A stretch of DNA of 64,000 nucleotides from Modestobacter altitudinis (GTDB lineage: Bacteria > Actinomycetota > Actinomycetes > Mycobacteriales > Geodermatophilaceae). Shown in pieces: positions 37,895 to 48,505 of the stretch. The stretch covers positions 62,001 to 126,000 of the forward strand of contig NZ_SJEW01000003.1 of the NCBI RefSeq assembly GCF_005930475.1. Direction: 5' to 3'. The position numbers and the translations under genes were made by a program. Each line of letters opens with the position of its first letter. The stretch's first letter is position 1. A model generated the notes under the pieces. That model was not told the DNA's origin and did no database searches. It was given only the letters and a program-made list of their open reading frames with translations.

Positions 37895-37967
37895 GGGCCT
37901 CTAGCTCAACTGGCAGAGCAGCGGACTTTTAATCCGCGGGTTGTGGGTTCGATCCCCACGGGGCCCA
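37895..37967 (+). tRNA. tRNA-Lys (TTT), island integration site
   Basis: Acceptor GGGCCTC with GGGGCCC (one T-G); anticodon stem GCGGA/TCCGC with loop CTTTTAA, anticodon TTT; T-loop GTTCGATCC; CCA follows. Bases from 37926 onward are duplicated at 48462-48505, so the 3' half is the attL core. The gene remains complete after integration. Confidence 0.96.
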
Positions 37968-39121
37968 CCACTGTGACCTGCAGTTTTGTTCTTTCGTGGG
38001 TGGGCGACCGGGGGTGGCGCCCACAAGACGCCCACAAGGCTGTCGGCGGCCCGCTGCGCGGCGGCGTCCATCCGAGCGGCCAGGTCGCTCAGGTCGTCGT
38101 CGAAGAGACCGGCGTAGACGTCGAGCGTCATCGCCGCTGAGGCATGCCCGAGCATGCGCTGGATGCTCTTGACGGTGGCCTCACTGGCCACCGCGAGTGA
38201 GGCGGCGGTGTGCCGGAGGTCGTGTGGGGTGACGTCGGTCAGGCCGGCCGCGCAGACGGCCGGGTCGAAGACCACGCGGCGCCAGTTCCGCAGCCGCAGT
38301 GCCGTGCCCGCGGCGGTGGTCAGCACCAGGTCGCCGCCCTTCTTGCCCTCGCAGCGCTCGGCCAGCGGACCGGCCAACGCGGCCGGCAGTGGGACGCTCC
38401 GGTGCTGATGGGTCTTCGGCGAGCCGAACTCCAGCTTGCCCGCCACCTCGGTCACGGATTCGGCGATGCTGAGCCGGCGGCACAGGAAGTCGACGCGGCG
38501 CACCCGCAGCGCGGCCAGCTCGCCGAACCGCAGCCCGGTGTAGGCGAGCAGTCGGATGACGTCCCCGTCGTCGACGGCCGCGGCGGCGAGCCGTTCCACT
38601 TCTTCCCGGCTAAGGAAGCGCGGCTCGTCGCGGGTGACGCGGGGGAGAGGCACCCGGTCAGCGGGGTTCCGCGGGATGCGCCCGTCGCGCACGGCAAGTC
38701 CGAGCAGCAGCGAGAAGACGCGGTGCGCCTGGCGCACGGTGGCCGGTGCGGAGCCGTTGGCTCGCAGTCCGGCGACCCAGCCGGCGACCTCGGCATGCGT
38801 GACGTCGGCAAGGCGGTGACTGCCCCAGGTGGGGAGCACGTGCGTGCGCAGCAGGCCCGCGTACCGGTACAGGGTGCTCGGCTTGATCTGGGTCTGTGCC
38901 GCGAGCCACTGGTCTGCCCAGGCGGAGACCGTGACCCGGCCGCGGTCCGGTGCGGTCCAGGTTTGGGTGACCATCGCCGAGGTTGCCACGTCGAGCCAGC
39001 GCTGGGCGTCTACCTTCCGGGCGAACCGCTTCTCGTGCTGCCGCCCACCGGGATTGCGGTATCGCGCGCGGTACCGCGACGTCCCGTCGCTCAGCGTGAT
39101 CCGGGTGATGGAGCCGTCCAC
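37901..39121 (-). CDS. Tyrosine-type site-specific integrase
   Basis: Phage-type integrase, 406 residues from GTG 39121 (GGAGG 9 bases upstream). N-terminal arm-binding AP2-like part (RYRARYRNPGGRQHEKRF), SAM-like core-binding domain, then the catalytic domain with Arg in TGLRFGELAAL, HxxR in TPHDLRHTAAS, His/Trp-equivalent in LGHASAAMTLD and the Tyr of VYAGL. The frame runs on through the attL core into tRNA-Lys, so the last residues (after RIK) are host-encoded. It integrates and excises the island with the excisionase. Confidence 0.93.
   Translation of the reverse strand: MDGSITRITLSDGTSRYRARYRNPGGRQHEKRFARKVDAQRWLDVATSAMVTQTWTAPDRGRVTVSAWADQWLAAQTQIKPSTLYRYAGLLRTHVLPTWGSHRLADVTHAEVAGWVAGLRANGSAPATVRQAHRVFSLLLGLAVRDGRIPRNPADRVPLPRVTRDEPRFLSREEVERLAAAAVDDGDVIRLLAYTGLRFGELAALRVRRVDFLCRRLSIAESVTEVAGKLEFGSPKTHQHRSVPLPAALAGPLAERCEGKKGGDLVLTTAAGTALRLRNWRRVVFDPAVCAAGLTDVTPHDLRHTAASLAVASEATVKSIQRMLGHASAAMTLDVYAGLFDDDLSDLAARMDAAAQRAADSLVGVLWAPPPVAHPRKNKTAGHSGGPRGDRTHNPRIKSPLLCQLS
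37926..37969 (+). repeat. attL core (44 bases)
   Basis: Begins CTTTTAATCCGCGGGTTGTG and ends CGGGGCCCACC, identical to 48462-48505. It spans anticodon loop to the 3' end of tRNA-Lys. Confidence 0.95.
38016..38039. repeat. Putative integrase arm sites near attL
   Basis: Two tandem copies of an ACGCCCACAA-like decamer (GGCGCCCACAAGACGCCCAC and on). The same unit occurs three times at 48321-48352 near attR and once at 48549-48560 just outside it. Confidence 0.6.
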
Positions 39122-39213
39122 GGCAGAGGACCTCCTGCAGGTGCCGAGAGATCGGACTGAACTGCTTGCGGCTGAGCCTGCCCGACGAAGGCCATCGGCG
39201 GCGGTGATGTGCA

Positions 39214-39414
39214 TCAACTGTGGGCGCGGGTGGCCTTGTCCCCGCCGACCTTTGAGTCCCACCAGCGGCCGACCTCGACCTCGTCATAGAGCACCCGGCG
39301 GCCGGCGCGGACGCCGGCAGGGCCGATGCCGACGTGGCGCCAGTAGCGAACGGTGGCCGGGCTGGTGCGGAACCGCGCGGCCACCTCCTCGGTGGTGAGC
39401 AGACGGCCTGTCAT
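39214..39414 (-). CDS. Excisionase / HTH DNA-binding protein
   Basis: Sixty-six residues with a MerR-like winged helix: LLTTEEVAARFRTSPATVRY then WRHVGIGPAGVRAGRRVLYDEVEV. GGAGG lies upstream of ATG 39414. Typical size and position for a recombination directionality factor beside the integrase, 93 bases upstream of it on the same strand. Confidence 0.88.
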   Translation of the reverse strand: MTGRLLTTEEVAARFRTSPATVRYWRHVGIGPAGVRAGRRVLYDEVEVGRWWDSKVGGDKATRAHS

Positions 39415-40120: not shown

Positions 40121-40400
40121 TCACCGTCCTATCGCGGTCGGTGCGCGTCCGGCGGCGAGGTCTTCGTGCAGGGTCTTGTAGATCACGTCGGAGAGGCGTC
40201 GTTTCAGGCAGCGCAGCGCTTCGCGTCCGGTCTTGCCTTCGGCGCGTTTGCGCAGGTAGTAGGCGCGGCCTTCGGTGTCGGCGCGGATCTGGGTGATCGC
40301 CATGGTGTAGAGCACCCGGTTGAGCGTGCGGTTGCCTGAGCGGTTGAGCCGATGCCGACTGGTGCGCCCGGAGGAGGCCCATCCGTGTCTCGCGCCCGGC
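40121..40400 (-). pseudogene. IS110-family transposase remnant (C-terminal part)
   Basis: The reverse-strand reading contains SSGRTSRHRLNRSGNRTLNR, then YTMAITQIRADTEGRAYYL and ALRCLKRRLSDVIYKTL, the C-terminal region of IS110 transposases (Transposase_20). The catalytic DEDD domain is missing. Upstream, an AAAGGAGG and ATG at 40589 starting MLFDRR may be the original 5' end, in a different frame, implying internal deletion. Confidence 0.75.
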
Positions 40401-40582
40401 AGCTGTTCTGGAACTGCGGTCGCCCGCGGGCTGCCTCGCTCCCATCGGGTTGACGCCGCCACGGCTTGCCGGCGTCACCCCGGCGGCCCGGTCACCCCCG
40501 GTCGTCTCCTTCAGCGCGGCCGGTCGACCTGGGCGCCCCAGGCGGCGAGCCTCGGCCATGCCGCTGTCGCTGCGACGGTCGA

Positions 40583-40895: not shown

Positions 40896-41630
40896 ATGGC
40901 TGCGCCAACAACAACGCGAATCGCCGGTACCGTCACCATTCGGCCACTTCTCTTGGGTGTCGTGGCAGATTTGGGCGAATCGGCTCGTGTAGTCGAAATC
41001 TTCCGCACCCTGGCTGGCCTCGGGGGTGGCTGCTACTCATCCATTCTCGAGTCGCCAGCCAGTCAGGAGGACTTAGAGGCGAAGTTCCACGCTTATGATC
41101 TGGATGCTCTCTGGGCGTGGGACGACGAATCTACACTCGAGTCGAAAGTGGCCTGGCGTGGTCGCGGTGAATGGGGACCGTTCGAAACCGGACGGTATGC
41201 CAATGGATTGCTACCGTGGGTCGCACTAGACGGGGCGCCGAGTGGCGTAGAAGTTCAGCATGATCCGCTGCTTGATTGGTTCTTGGCCGACCGAGCTACC
41301 GCATCGACGCACTCCGCCGTACTCGACGACGTACCGTCCGCGGTGTCGACGCGTTCGTTCAATCACACCCCACCCCTGATACTGATTATAGATCGCAGCT
41401 CCCTGACGCATCAAGTTCTGGCGTGGAATGTCCGATCGCTGGCGATCAACTTGATGATTATTGATCTCGGTGTTAGTTCGCAATACTCCGCTTGGAGGAG
41501 GTGGCTAGCTGGTCTGCCCAGCAGAGCTCAGAAGACTCGGAGTCGATGCAAGAAGTGTGGATCTGGGATGTTCGACAGGATCCTTGCGAGCAGGACTTCG
41601 ATGCACTCGCATTCAAGCTTGAAGGGGTAG
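40896..41630 (+). pseudogene. Split nuclease-like gene, segment 1 (N-terminal)
   Basis: Frame of 244 residues from ATG 40896 (ATG 40854 also in frame). It starts MAAPTTTRIAGTVTIRPLLL and includes AGLGGGCYSSILESP, DLDALWAWDDE and PPLILIIDRSS followed by LAWNVRSLAINLMIIDLGV. After that point the reading becomes unlike protein (Ser/Arg/Lys-rich to the stop), while the -1 frame becomes protein-like. Codon use is visibly less GC-biased than in flanking chromosome genes. No family recognised with certainty. Probably the N-terminal third of one protein with the next two segments. Confidence 0.6.
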
Positions 41631-42493
41631 GCAGAAGGGCCGTCTGGTATCACTCAGGCAAAACGCCACCGCGCTACTCGCGCGTTCTTGAGACCGACGA
41701 CGTGCTTCCGTTCGATGTCGCTATTCCCTACGGAGCGATGCAGGCCACGGTTCTTTTGCCGAGGCGTCGCCTAGCTGGACGAGGAAGCGTTTTAGGAGAT
41801 TTCCGTACAGTTGCCGCCGATGTCAAGGTCACAGAGCTGACCGGTCATGACCCTCGGCTAGTTGCGCACCTGCCTGACGACGAAAGATTCGCGGACCTGT
41901 TGGATTGGGTATCCGACAATATGGTGCGTGCCAGGCGACCGACGGATCGCGGGTTCGTCTCAGGAGTCGGCGTCACCGATCGGTCGATCAATGTTCAGCT
42001 CCACCGCAAGTCCGAGGTCTTTCGCCGGCTGTTTGGGGCGGGAGGAGTTGTCACTGGCCAGTCCGACGTTGGGCTTTTTCAAACGCGGGCGGCGGAGATG
42101 CTGGGTGGCGCGGCTAGTGGAGCTTTAACGCAACCTGGGTTGGCCGCTGCTTTACAGCTCTTAGCCACCCATCAGGGGGGCATTCCGCTGGCTCGTCTTA
42201 GAGAAGAGATTAAAAAGGGCCGCGGTCGGTGGCCCATGCGGTTGTCGCAGACCAGTGTTGCCGACTACGTCGAATCAGTCCTGCGACGGCTGCTCAATAG
42301 TGGCTTGGTGACTGCGGTCCTAGTGGGCAAATGTACTTTTTGTCGTGCGTCTATGCATATTGGTCCAAGCATGCTCGGCGACCACGTCGCGTGCGACTTT
42401 TGTGGACAAGATGTGCGACTGGCTTCTCTGATCGGGGGGGGGGGCAGTACCGCCAAAGTGGTTGTTCCGCCTAGCGGGGCATCTGACGCGTGA
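41477..42493 (+). pseudogene. Split nuclease-like gene, segment 2 (middle, zinc ribbon)
   Basis: Open from 41477; possible own starts TTG 41492 or ATG 41546 (GGAG 3 bases upstream, too close). Contains VWIWDVRQDP, RRAVWYHSGKTPP, a Ser/Thr-rich helical middle, LLATHQGGIPLARLREEIK, and a zinc ribbon C-x2-C-x16-C-x2-C (CTFC...CDFC). Inserting one base near 41474-41476 (TT to TTT) reads through from segment 1 as DLGVSFAILRLEEVASW. The frame is lost again after the 11-G tract. Confidence 0.6.
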
Positions 42494-43085
42494 GCAGGTG
42501 CAGGCCATGGTTCCTGCCTTGGCCGCGCTTGGCCAGATAGTCAACACGTACGGAATAGGCGGTGATCTGGCGTGTCATGAGTTGGGCCTAACAGTCACGG
42601 TTGGCCAAAAGTCGGTTGAAGCCGACATTGCCGCGTTTCTGCGCTATCCAATCCCTGTCACCTTGATCGGGGAGGTGAAAGGCCGCAATCGGATTGATCA
42701 GAATGATCTCGACAACCTTGGTTGGCTACAGGACCGCCTGACTGGAGAAGGATTTGACAGCCTCATCGTTCTCGTGACAGCGAAACAGAGTTTTGGACCT
42801 GAAGAGGTCGCGATCCTGCGTACATTCTGTGAGGTGCGGGCGGAAGTAGTCACTGTCCGTCGGTCGCTGACGCCGCGCCTTCCTCTGCTTTTGACTGGTG
42901 AGGATCTGTTTTTGCCCTGGATGGACGAGGAGAGCGTGAGGCGGTGGGGGAGGAATGATCCTGGGTTAGCTGTTCATGGCGTGGCCTTGGAGTCCTGCAA
43001 GCGCAACCTTGGACTTCTTGATTGGGAACTGTCGAGGACTGGCCCGGCAAAGCTTAATTGGGTGATTGGTTTGGATCGCGCGTGA
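42432..43085 (+). pseudogene. Split nuclease-like gene, segment 3 (PD-(D/E)XK-like)
   Basis: Open from 42432; a TTG at 42462 would give 207 residues. The core VEADIAAFLRYPIPVTLIGE plus VKGRNRID has the restriction-endonuclease pattern D-x15-E-V-K (Asp55, Glu71, Lys73 counted from TTG 42462), followed by DLDNLGWLQDRL and a hydrophobic strand SLIVLVTAK. Removing one G from the 11-G tract joins it to segment 2 as LASLIGGGAVPPKWLFRLAG. Likely a DNA-cleaving domain of a defence-type protein. Confidence 0.65.
42434..42444 (+). repeat. 11-G homopolymer tract
   Basis: Eleven consecutive G between the zinc ribbon and the nuclease-like segments. Ten would restore one reading frame. Candidate for phase variation, mutation or a sequencing error. 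Confidence 0.95.
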
Positions 43086-43247
43086 GTCATGGCTGGTGTC
43101 TATTGACCGACCCTTGAATGACGTCCTTTATCTATCGGTCCGATCGCTCTGCGCATGCGGCAGGGGTGAGCTATCCCGATGGTCCACAGTCGAGGCTGGT
43201 CGCCCTCTGAAGTTGATCTTCGGCTCGGGCTACTGGACGATCCGGCC

Positions 43248-43766
43248 GTGAAGGTCATCGGGAACTTCGTCATCTTCGCGGCCGTGCTGGGGATCGGCGT
43301 TGCCGTCTACTTCTTCGTGACAGGTCCCGCAGCGGTCGGCTGGTTTCTGGCCGTCCTAGTGGTCCTGCTGCTGCCGAGCTATCTGCTGGTGACGAGGACG
43401 CCCCGTCAGTTCGGTAAGAGGACCGGAGACCATGTAGCCGCTCAGGACCCCCAGTCTTTAGCGGAGGGGCGTGGCGGCATCCGGGTGCATCGGCCTGCCG
43501 GCTACTACGTCAATGCCGTGCGCACCTACAAGATCCTCGTGGACGGTGAGGAGGTCGGCTCCGTGCGCCCCGGCAGGTCCCTTGATCTGCAGGTCGAGCC
43601 CGGCCGTCATGTGGTGCGGGGCAGCTTGGACTGGGGTGGGAGTCAAGACCTGTCCGTCGACGTCGCCGCTGGCGAGACAGTCATGCTCGCGGTGCTGCCC
43701 GGGCCGCCGACGGCGGCCTTCTCAAAGCCGAACGGGGTCTTGGAGCTCAAGCTGTCTTCCACGTAG
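43248..43766 (+). CDS. Membrane protein with PEGA-like C-terminal domain
   Basis: Product of 172 residues from GTG 43248 (a longer form from 43179 is possible). Two adjacent transmembrane segments (VIGNFVIFAAVLGIGVAVYF and GWFLAVLVVLLLPSYLLV), then a beta-rich extramembrane domain: YKILVDGEEVGSVRPGRSLD and VEPGRHVVRGSLDWGG resemble PEGA surface-type domains. Function unknown; island cargo. Confidence 0.7.
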   Translation: MKVIGNFVIFAAVLGIGVAVYFFVTGPAAVGWFLAVLVVLLLPSYLLVTRTPRQFGKRTGDHVAAQDPQSLAEGRGGIRVHRPAGYYVNAVRTYKILVDGEEVGSVRPGRSLDLQVEPGRHVVRGSLDWGGSQDLSVDVAAGETVMLAVLPGPPTAAFSKPNGVLELKLSST

Positions 43767-44240: not shown

Positions 44241-44618
44241 GTGCCGACCGGACCGCAGCCCAGCGAGTGGCTCCGCGGGGTCCTCGAGCTGTGCGTCTTG
44301 CGAGTCATGGCTGATGGGCCCACCTACGGCTATGCCATCGCCGGTCGGCTGGCCGACGCGGGCTTCGGCGACATCAAGGGCGGCACGCTGTACCCGCTGC
44401 TGGCCCGGCTCGAGAAGAACGAGCTGGTCATCGTCGACTGGCGGACCGGTGACACCGGTCCGGGGCGCAAGTACTTCACCCTCACCGACGCCGGCCGCGC
44501 CGAGCTGGAGCACGGCCTCACCCGGTGGGAGGCGTTCTCGGCCCGGGTCGGCGTCCACCTTGCCGCGGGCGGCGACGCCTTCGTCCACTCCACCCACTCC
44601 TCGAGGAGTTCAACATGA
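44241..44618 (+). CDS. PadR-family transcriptional regulator
   Basis: Winged-helix repressor of 125 residues, GTG start: LRGVLELCVLRVMADGPTYG then GGTLYPLLARLEKNELV and GPGRKYFTLTDAGRAEL, the PadR core. It overlaps the HAAS-type membrane gene by 4 bases (ATGA), the usual pairing where PadR controls its partner. Confidence 0.93.
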   Translation: MPTGPQPSEWLRGVLELCVLRVMADGPTYGYAIAGRLADAGFGDIKGGTLYPLLARLEKNELVIVDWRTGDTGPGRKYFTLTDAGRAELEHGLTRWEAFSARVGVHLAAGGDAFVHSTHSSRSST

Positions 44619-45388
44619 GCGAGTCCCCCGGCGTGCAGGCCGCACCGCAGGAAGTCTGGGAGCGTCCGTTCGTCCGGGCCCACCAGGAGTGGTGCAGTGC
44701 GTTCGTGCTCGAGCTGCGGCTGCGAGACGTCCCCGGTCTGGTGATCGGGGAGCGCCTGGGCGAGGTGGAGGGCCACTGCACGGAGACCGGTGAACCCCCC
44801 TCAGCAGCGTTCGGTGATCCCACCGACTACGCCCGCGAGATCGATGCGGAGAGCTCTCCCGAGCGCGTGTCCGGGGTGTGGACCATCGCCGCCCTCGGCG
44901 CCGGTCAGGTGCTGGCCATGCTCGTCGGCACCGCTGCGATCCGAAACTGGGTCAGTGGTGAGCCACTGACCTACAACCTGGTGCAGCTCGGCTGTCTCGC
45001 CGTGGTCGCGGCCGCGCTGCTGTGCCTACCTCGAGTGCTGCGCCCGCTGATGGCGCACCCTTGGGTGGTGGGCACCGCCCTCTTCGCCGTGGTCACCGCG
45101 GCTGGTGTCGGAGCCGCAGCAGCCAGTGGAACTTCGTCAGCGACCGTTGTTCCGGTATCACCGGCAGTGATCGCGATTGGCCTCTTTATGGTGGTGATCG
45201 CCCTGTCCTGGCTCGAGTACCGCGAGCTGACTGGTGACTCCGCCGACGATCTCGTCACCTCCCCTCTCACCCCTGAGCCGCGAGCGAACATTGCAGCCCA
45301 GCGATCAGGCTGGATCGTCTTGCTGCCGCCCCTGATGATCCCCACCTATTACCTTGCGATGGGGATCCTCTTCTGGGTCTTCGGCTGA
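44615..45388 (+). CDS. HAAS-domain-like membrane protein
   Basis: Product of 257 residues. The N-terminal part (about 1-85) is a soluble helical region (FVLELRLRDVPGLVIGERLG, PTDYAREIDAE) resembling the HAAS domain found next to PadR regulators; the C-terminal part has six or so hydrophobic segments. Probably a membrane signalling partner of the PadR protein. ATG 44615 preceded by GAGGAG. Confidence 0.8.
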   Translation: MSESPGVQAAPQEVWERPFVRAHQEWCSAFVLELRLRDVPGLVIGERLGEVEGHCTETGEPPSAAFGDPTDYAREIDAESSPERVSGVWTIAALGAGQVLAMLVGTAAIRNWVSGEPLTYNLVQLGCLAVVAAALLCLPRVLRPLMAHPWVVGTALFAVVTAAGVGAAAASGTSSATVVPVSPAVIAIGLFMVVIALSWLEYRELTGDSADDLVTSPLTPEPRANIAAQRSGWIVLLPPLMIPTYYLAMGILFWVFG

Positions 45389-45945
45389 AGCACGTGAACC
45401 AGTCCGACGGCGTGCCGCGTTGAGGCGACAGCGTTCCGCCGGCAGTTGTCGGACTGGTTTGATCTGATCGCCTGCCGTCGCTGAGTCGCGCACGACGCGT
45501 GCCACCAGCCAGGGCGACACGCGCGAAACACCTTTCCATCACCCGCGGGCTCTCGAAGATCGACCCGGCTCTCCTGGCACATCGGGTGAGGCAATCGTGA
45601 ACCGCACCCGCAGGGGCGCCAGCGCTTACCGTCCCGAAAACGGTCAGGTTTCGGGCAGTCCGTCAACGGGCGCTTTCGGTCCGGCGCAGTCCCCGACCAG
45701 GGCCAAGGTGTCGCCCCAGGCTCGAAGTCCTTCGCCACCAGCCGGGCGAGGATCAGCCGCGATAACTCAGGGATCAGGTCGTCGAGCTCGAGGACGCCAC
45801 GGCCGGAGCCCCCCTCGTCGTCGTGCCGCCAAGCGCAGTTGCTTGAGGGTCTCCTGGTCGACGATGGGTCAGGGCTTGTCCACGCTGCTACGACCCATCA
45901 CGCGGTGTAGGTGGGCGGGGTGACCCAGCTGACTAGCCTGAGAGG
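45389..45945. other. Island stretch with a possible decayed gene
   Basis: About 560 bases without an intact gene. On the reverse strand around 45730-45830 one frame reads GVLELDDLIPELSRLILARL, protein-like but without a start or a clean end, which suggests a gene remnant. The last 60 bases hold the tetR promoter, with TGACCCAG at 45921 resembling the half-site upstream of the SDR gene. Confidence 0.4.
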
Positions 45946-46539
45946 GTGATCACCCGGAAAGGGCAAGCCACCCGAGAGCACATCGTCGGGGCGGCCGCGA
46001 CGCTCATCGGCCAGCATGGAGTCGCCGGCACCAGCGCCGATGATGTCCGCAAGACCGCGGGTGTCAGCGGATCACAGCTGATGCACTACTTCGGCAGCAA
46101 GCAGGCCCTCGTGAGGGCGGTCATCGCTCGTCAGTCCGAGTCGGAGGCGGTCGTCGATAACCCGATGCTGGGTCCGCTCGACAGCTTCGAGGCGCTGCGG
46201 GCGTGGGCCGACGCTGCGGTGGAGAACCTCGCTCACGGCAGCAGTCGCGGCGCCTGCACGTTGGCGATGCTGGCGGGTTCAACGAGTCCTGGCGACGAGC
46301 AGACCCGTGATGAGCTCTTCCGCGCCTTCGTACGCGTGCAGTCCCCGCTGCTGGACGGTCTCCGCGCTATGCGCGACCGGGGCGACCTCCGTCCCGGGGC
46401 CGATCTCGACGAGCTGTCGATGGCGCTGCTGACGGCCCTCCAGGGGGGCACTCTCCTGGGGCAGACCATGCAGTCGACGGCGCCCATGCGAGCGTCGATG
46501 AACGCCGCGCTCCGCTACGTCGAGTCCTTCGCCACCTGA
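45946..46539 (+). CDS. TetR-family transcriptional regulator
   Basis: Product of 197 residues, GTG start. N-terminal HTH: REHIVGAAATLIGQHGVAGT and VRKTAGVSGSQLMHYFGSKQ; C-terminal ligand-binding helices. It probably represses the SDR gene downstream through the inverted repeat at 46721-46748. In this family ligands are often small aromatic or quinone-like compounds; nothing here fixes the ligand. Confidence 0.92.
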   Translation: MITRKGQATREHIVGAAATLIGQHGVAGTSADDVRKTAGVSGSQLMHYFGSKQALVRAVIARQSESEAVVDNPMLGPLDSFEALRAWADAAVENLAHGSSRGACTLAMLAGSTSPGDEQTRDELFRAFVRVQSPLLDGLRAMRDRGDLRPGADLDELSMALLTALQGGTLLGQTMQSTAPMRASMNAALRYVESFAT

Positions 46540-46720
46540 CCATCGCCTGACGGTCCGTCCGACCGCCCTGCACCTTCCAGGCCCGCTCTGACAGCTAGCG
46601 GCCCGGGTTGTCTCCGTCACCTGGGCCCCGCCGCGTATGCAAGATCGTCGAACCAACTGCGGGCAGTCCCGCTGACCCTTGACGTCGAGCCCAGCAGCAT
46701 TCCAGCTTTTCTGGGTTAAG

Positions 46721-46748
46721 TGACCCAATCTGTGTCATGATTGGGTCA
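46721..46748. promoter_or_regulatory. TetR operator candidate
   Basis: TGACCCAAT-N10-ATTGGGTCA, a perfect 9-bp inverted repeat 22 bases before the SDR start codon. A related half-site TGACCCAG lies upstream of tetR at 45921. Confidence 0.75.
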
Positions 46749-46770
46749 TCCCGCCCAGAAGGAGCATTCC

Positions 46771-47514
46771 ATGTCGGAGCTTGCAGGAAGAACCGCCCTC
46801 GTCACCGGTGCGACCCGCGGGATCGGCTACGAGGTCGCCCGTCGCCTCGTGGAGGCCGGTCAGACCGTCTACCTGGGTGCCCGGGAGCTGCGACGAGGGA
46901 TCGAGGTAAGCGCTGAGGTCGGCGCGACGCCAGTCCTCCTCGACACCACCGACGGCGCCTCGATCGCCGCGGCGGTGGACCGGTTGCAGAACGAGGTCGG
47001 CGCGCTGGACGTCCTGGTGAACAACGCCGGCATCGCCGGGGACCAGCGTCCGCCCGCCGAGGCGACGCCCGACGACCTCCGCCGGGTGTTCGAAACGAAC
47101 GTGTTCGGCGCCGCCGCGGTGTTGACGGCCTTCACGCCGCTGCTCGAGGCGAGCCGGGCTCCGGTCGTCGTGAACGTCTCCAGCGCCGTCGGCTCCATGA
47201 CGCTGAACGCGAGCCCGGACGCGCGGTGGTCAATGCTTGCGTACCCCATGTCGAAGGCAGCGCTCAACATGCTGACCATCCAGTACGCGAGGGCCTTCCC
47301 CCGCTGGCGCGTCAACTCCGCGTCACCCGGGCCCACCGCGACGGACTTCGTCGCCCACCGCGAGGGCCTGCCGACGGTGGAGCAGCTTCGGGCGGCCGGC
47401 GTCGCGGTGAACACCGTGCAGGAGGGCGCGGAGATCATCGTGGGGATGGCGACGGTCGGCCCGAAGGGCCCGACCGGGACCTTCGTCGGCAACGAGGGAC
47501 CCGTTCCCTGGTGA
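46771..47514 (+). CDS. SDR-family oxidoreductase
   Basis: Short-chain dehydrogenase of 247 residues: TGATRGIG cofactor loop, NNAG, catalytic Ser in NVSSAVGS and YxxxK in YPMSKAALN. ATG 46771 has AGAAGGAG 6 bases upstream. Likely the target of the adjacent TetR regulator; substrate unknown, a quinone, aldehyde or keto compound being usual for this TetR-SDR pairing. Confidence 0.93.
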   Translation: MSELAGRTALVTGATRGIGYEVARRLVEAGQTVYLGARELRRGIEVSAEVGATPVLLDTTDGASIAAAVDRLQNEVGALDVLVNNAGIAGDQRPPAEATPDDLRRVFETNVFGAAAVLTAFTPLLEASRAPVVVNVSSAVGSMTLNASPDARWSMLAYPMSKAALNMLTIQYARAFPRWRVNSASPGPTATDFVAHREGLPTVEQLRAAGVAVNTVQEGAEIIVGMATVGPKGPTGTFVGNEGPVPW

Positions 47515-48461: not shown

Positions 48462-48505
48462 CTTTTAATCCGCGGGTTGTGGGTTCGATCCCCACGGGGC
48501 CCACC
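48462..48505 (+). repeat. attR core (tRNA-Lys 3' fragment)
   Basis: Forty-four bases identical to 37926-37969 in tRNA-Lys. It is a partial tRNA copy, not a functional gene, and marks the right end of the island. Confidence 0.95.

Follow-up and report, generated by a model that had tools for sequence, protein, structure and literature searches.

The question raised by this locus is whether three successive open frames in the genome of Modestobacter altitudinis are the remains of a single gene and, if so, what kind of protein that gene encoded. The window, by which is meant the whole stretch of 64,000 nucleotides that was analysed (contig NZ_SJEW01000003.1, positions 62,001 to 126,000), belongs to a 5.18-Mb genome of high GC content that is available as a draft in 161 contigs. 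On its forward strand, positions 40896-43085 hold three overlapping open frames, here called pieces A, B and C. An initial annotation had read them as one split gene, restorable by adding one base at the first break and removing one G from an 11-G tract at the second. We consider it rather probable that a gene for a large metal-dependent nuclease, from an unnamed and patchily distributed actinobacterial family, was recently inactivated here, and that the intact protein would act by itself against plasmids or phages.

The lengths of the three frames are beyond chance expectation. The three longest forward-strand frames within 40896-43085 have 338, 244 and 217 codons. Among 1000 first-order Markov sequences with the composition of this region, the longest forward-strand frame reached at least 318 codons in three, and the third longest reached at least 200 codons in none. 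Coordinate arithmetic shows that A and C are in frame with each other and B is not, so that the two frame changes cancel. The base composition of the pieces is alien to the window, as their GC content is 0.57-0.58 (0.60-0.61 at third codon positions) compared to 0.69-0.78 in the 1-kb bins of the window outside 40-49 kb, and the lower GC content described earlier is thus borne out.

Database searches were run with A, B and C separately. B and C proved to match successive parts of a single unbroken protein of 791 residues from an uncultured actinomycete (contig JAKAIC010000040.1 of the metagenome-assembled genome (MAG) WY3.bin15; G202). B corresponds to residues 316-570 of this protein (E 1e-18, about 27% identity where aligned) and C to residues 578-699 (E 8e-10). 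In a set of 394 genomes of the class, own genome included, B and C each had one strong foreign match, and both fell in the same 792-codon frame of G202 (1.7e-19 and 1.9e-10). An E of 0.01 was passed by 8 of the 394 genomes for B and by 5 for C, the other matches being weak. With the family profile, B scored 26.8 bits against at most 2.5 for shuffled sequences, and C scored 26.0 bits against at most -0.5. Zinc ribbon and nuclease were found in one long frame in eleven members, namely those of the MAG, G067, G253, G112, R. aetherivorans, K. indigofera, S. longwoodensis, R. erythropolis, S. griseorubiginosus, G648 and G693. Since B and C match a single intact protein in order, and since these eleven relatives keep both parts in one frame, one original gene is indicated. 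It is extremely improbable that the locus encodes three separate proteins, or one protein made by programmed frameshifting. The frames do overlap, and a Shine-Dalgarno-like run, GGAGGAGGTGG, lies at 41493-41503, right where frame A changes to frame B. However, besides the single-frame relatives, no relative was found that is split at these places, and no homologues were found as separate proteins ending at the two breaks.

The place of A and the exact point of the first break are less firm than the union of B and C. A and the MAG protein align at their starts with equal spacing from an RP to a GG motif, a spacing that arises early in 25 of 1000 shuffles. The global alignment score of A with the MAG protein was reached by 2 of 500 shuffled sequences and the local score by 25 of 500; no significant local match of A to a relative was found. 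The family-profile scores of A lie inside the range of shuffled sequences, 99 of 826 scored shuffles reaching its score. Judged from position, spacing and this modest global alignment, A is probably the N-terminus of the same protein. No long repeat lies at the first frame change, whose position rests on the stop codons and on weak similarity. For the first 66 residues of B no significant match was obtained, the local score being reached by 34 and the global score by 438 of 500 shuffles. Of the two edits first proposed, the second coincides with the 11-G tract and the first stays approximate, even as the two frame changes cancel.

The zinc ribbon C-x2-C-x16-C-x2-C in B and the D-x15-E-V-K motif in C (42624-42680) are both present as first read. 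The four cysteines and the residues E-x-D...E-x-K are kept in B and C and in all ten aligned relatives; G648 and G693, which were found later and compared by eye, each differ at one of E, D, E and K. Piece C and the ten aligned relatives thus carry the conserved active-site motif D...(D/E)-x-K of the PD-(D/E)XK superfamily. A comparison of the nuclease profile with PDB, up to an E of 10, gave only two sequence matches, VC1899 and Can2, at E values that are suggestive (0.04-0.06); both are CARF-linked PD-(D/E)XK nucleases. In the profile match to Can2 (E 0.064) the E-x-D aligned on Glu276/Asp278, which are active-site residues of the Can2 nuclease according to PMC7969007. The model of the C-terminal domain, which is of moderate confidence, shows the helix-strand-strand-strand-helix-strand order of a PD-(D/E)XK fold, and its structural matches include Cdn1, Can2, VC1899 and Card1. 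In the fold comparison of this model, though, the unrelated DNase I scores alike. A non-nuclease fold of the C-terminus, which would have refuted the initial reading, was not what the model gave. The whole 791-residue relative was modelled at a predicted local distance difference test score of 36.8 and gave no usable structure, and comparison of the N-terminal profile with PDB gave no useful match.

No fitting family was found in Pfam or PADLOC when nine members were scanned (those of G648, G693 and S. griseorubiginosus being left out of the library scans), nor in NCBIfam or PHROG for the MAG protein, which is the closest member, and the three pieces. The family was also not recognised in the titles and abstract openings of open-licence literature on zinc-ribbon nucleases, defence and phase variation. 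The protein had been called undescribed from the start, and this description holds for the libraries scanned. What is new here is the unnamed family and its combination of parts; the catalytic fold is already known.

The likeness to Can2, Card1 and VC1899 (DUF1887, CARF-PD-(D/E)XK) raises the question whether the family is a CRISPR ancillary nuclease activated by cyclic oligoadenylate. With those proteins the family shares a predicted nuclease core and the active-site E-x-D...E-x-K, and in both the nuclease forms the C-terminal end of a larger protein, a presumed sensor in the case of the family. VC1899 and Can2 were the sole PDB matches of the nuclease profile, and one of nine members touches the PADLOC model CARF_PDDEXK at E 0.045. 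However, the family differs in length (about 700-850 residues, compared to about 370-440 for the Can2-type structural matches) and carries a zinc ribbon ahead of the nuclease. No CARF family was matched in Pfam by nine members or in PDB by the N-terminal profile, searches in which a distant CARF could be missed. Csm1-type Cas10 was absent from the own genome in a search in which 7 of 14 controls were positive and which did not cover the Cmr2 type. Type III CRISPR is usual in genomes with Can2 or Card1, although VC1899 is an orphan (PMC7969007). A CRISPR ancillary role is on balance very unlikely.

A second point of comparison is Shedu. No match to DUF4263 (Pfam) or Shedu (PADLOC) was seen in the nine members, and both libraries presumably contain these models. 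Shedu (SduA, DUF4263) is, as described in PMC12839542, a single protein with a variable N-terminus and a PD-(D/E)XK nuclease. The family resembles it in being one protein so built and differs by its zinc ribbon. By analogy with Shedu or Can2, the family could provide nuclease defence with one protein; membership of neither is claimed.

All named family members are from Actinomycetota, on chromosomes as well as on plasmids. Of 59 genomes from the genus, family and order, the own one was the sole genome with such a gene, and nothing similar was found in the other 58. A two-sequence profile of the zinc-ribbon region matched 11 of 394 class genomes at E of at most 0.01. G067, G253 and G112 were accepted as new members because they have long frames in which a zinc ribbon is followed by the nuclease motif in the same order. 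By accepted matches with this profile the gene is patchy, occurring in 5 of the 394 class genomes including the own. With the nuclease profile, 9 of 168 genomes (own included) matched at E of at most 0.001, and the own genome, G648 and G693 were accepted. Matches L005, L007, L030, L033, L034 and L035 are not part of the accepted-member counts. Several candidates were rejected: the weak genome matches L003, L004, L006, L008, L011-L013, L018-L020, L027 and L028 are other proteins or shadow frames. Among the nuclease-profile matches, L052-L054 proved to be ATPase-type proteins whose end resembles PD-(D/E)XK, L056 and L058 are short frames with a similar motif, and for L055 and L057 a scripted check gave no such frame. 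When family members were used as queries, the plasmid collection gave 12 distinct records, several of them fragments; H16 and H17 were left out of the records read, and in all five of the records read that annotate it the intact member is a hypothetical protein. No plasmid match was obtained with B, C or the MAG protein as query, no phage match with the MAG or the S. longwoodensis protein, and no family match in the viral contigs scanned. A scan of the contig collection with two patterns, both poorly chosen, returned the same MAG only.

The neighbours suggest a role in defence. In the MAG, HsdM, HsdS and HsdR come before the family member on its own strand, and a GmrSD_N protein comes after it (L014 1-15287); the type I restriction genes are complete, and the 15-kb contig also has an integrase gene and a tRNA-Leu. 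In S. longwoodensis the member lies on a plasmid (L042 3389-18788) among an HsdM-like methylase, a HATPase protein, an 1800-residue AAA protein and a DUF4379 protein. In S. griseorubiginosus an annotated restriction endonuclease and a PIN protein are within about 7 kb. The R. erythropolis member comes after HTH and PIN genes, and other members lie among transposases or near plasmid ends. Mobile genes and family members aside, only an HsdM relative recurs as a neighbour, in two loci, which favours a stand-alone effector, and from the restriction genes beside relatives we infer the defence role. A nuclease for repair or for the upkeep of mobile elements, such as plasmid maintenance, is fairly unlikely. 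It would agree with the many members on plasmids, some of them amid transposases, and with the repair-enzyme nuclease domains (EndoMS, Hjc) in the same structural match list; the restriction, methylase or GmrSD_N genes at three loci and the patchiness of the gene speak against it.

Given its two frame changes and its decayed neighbour, a fragment of an IS110-type transposase, the window's copy of the gene was most likely inactivated recently. A, B and C are otherwise open, with no further damage. Damage to this gene recurs elsewhere, as the parts lie in two frames on two Embleya plasmids (L039, L044); in L044 the frame change is inside the zinc ribbon, near the second break of our copy and not at it. 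Partial copies were also seen: a short M. gallinarum match in three pieces, a short Hoyosella match, and an N-terminal part on another K. indigofera plasmid. It is fairly unlikely, though deserving of some weight, that the breaks are sequencing or assembly errors and that the gene is whole in the living strain. The draft state of the genome and the absence of other damage would fit this, and long homopolymers are prone to sequencing error. But the same gene would have to contain two errors of independent origin, the first of them outside any long repeat, and the adjoining IS110 fragment and the other broken family copies also speak against it.

The 11-G tract also calls for attention. Poly-G contingency genes are known to switch by gain or loss of bases, and a phase-variable gene whose nuclease end is turned on and off by this tract is an alternative of low probability. 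The tract lies exactly at the change from B to C and is the only run of at least ten G or C in the 5.18-Mb genome, for which reason slippage or phase variation is possible at the second break. Yet the first frame change is at no long repeat, so that changes in the tract would not suffice to switch the protein as a whole. Moreover, in ten relatives the gene has no run of eight or longer (seven G in one of them), and of 21 genomes of the genus, counting the own, 16 contain a run of at least ten G or C somewhere. The number of ten-G or ten-C matches across these 21 genomes ranges from none to well over a hundred, a spread that is perhaps due to sequencing method. Recent inactivation is the state we prefer for this copy.

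It should be noted here that the gene lies in a mobile island, as had been proposed. The island is about 10.5 kb long, sits at a tRNA-Lys gene (37895-37970) and is bounded by exact 44-bp direct repeats, one of them in the 3' end of the tRNA gene; with its integrase it is an integrative island at a tRNA gene (Table 1). The MAG protein offers a parallel: its parts follow one another in the same order within one frame, and its island likewise has an integrase, together with restriction genes and a tRNA-Leu. It differs in sequence, with about 27% identity where aligned, and in its neighbours.

Table 1. Features of the tRNA-Lys island and of the split gene, in window coordinates
Feature	Position (strand)	Remarks
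Tyrosine integrase of island	37901..39262 (-)	PF00589, E 9.6e-18
att repeat 1	37926..37969 (+)	Within 3' part of tRNA-Lys; 44 bp identical to 48462-48505
Small MerR/HTH_17 protein	39214..39414 (-)	PF12728, E 7.9e-9; possible excisionase
IS110-type transposase remnant	40121-40462 (-)	PF02371, E 1.6e-7; adjoins piece A on upstream side
Piece A	40896..41474 (+)	Frame open on to 41630; probable N-terminal part; start aligned with MAG protein start, statistically weak
Piece B	41477..42433 (+)	Frame open 41477-42493; middle part with zinc ribbon and winged-helix-like stretch (by eye)
Zinc ribbon C-x2-C-x16-C-x2-C	42332..42403 (+)	In B; four Cys aligned with 10/10 relatives
11-G tract	42434..42444 (+)	Where frame B changes to frame C, between zinc ribbon and nuclease
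Piece C	42447..43085 (+)	Frame open 42432-43085; predicted C-terminal PD-(D/E)XK nuclease domain
Active-site residues E-x-D ... E-x-K	42618..42680 (+)	In C; putative; aligned with 10/10 relatives and, via family profile, with Can2
Small protein with hydrophobic stretch	43179-43766	Directly after gene; DUF2846 match E 0.0018, below cut-off
Further cargo	44241-47514	Downstream of gene; PadR regulator, membrane protein, TetR regulator, short-chain dehydrogenase
att repeat 2	48462..48505 (+)	Far end of island

In an intact member of the family, the N-terminal half could sense an invader or a signal, and the winged-helix-like stretch together with the zinc ribbon may hold nucleic acid. The C-terminal PD-(D/E)XK domain, of the Can2/VC1899 kind, would then cut DNA or RNA, so that the protein would counter plasmids or phages on its own, as an effector that islands and plasmids carry. 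In the present genome no working protein is expected, as the two frame changes part the N-terminal, zinc-ribbon and nuclease sections from each other. A bolder proposal, which we regard as doubtful but worth stating, is that of a new stand-alone actinobacterial immune effector family with an N-terminal sensor, a winged-helix/zinc-ribbon reader of nucleic acid and a nuclease that resembles Can2 but would work with neither CARF nor CRISPR. Such a family would be spread by islands and plasmids, repeatedly broken and perhaps harmful to its host, with its nuclease end in this genome maybe switched by poly-G. With no match in the libraries scanned and an active site kept in all ten aligned members, the family is a concrete candidate for a defence nuclease, and it would show a Can2-like nuclease joined to something other than CARF.
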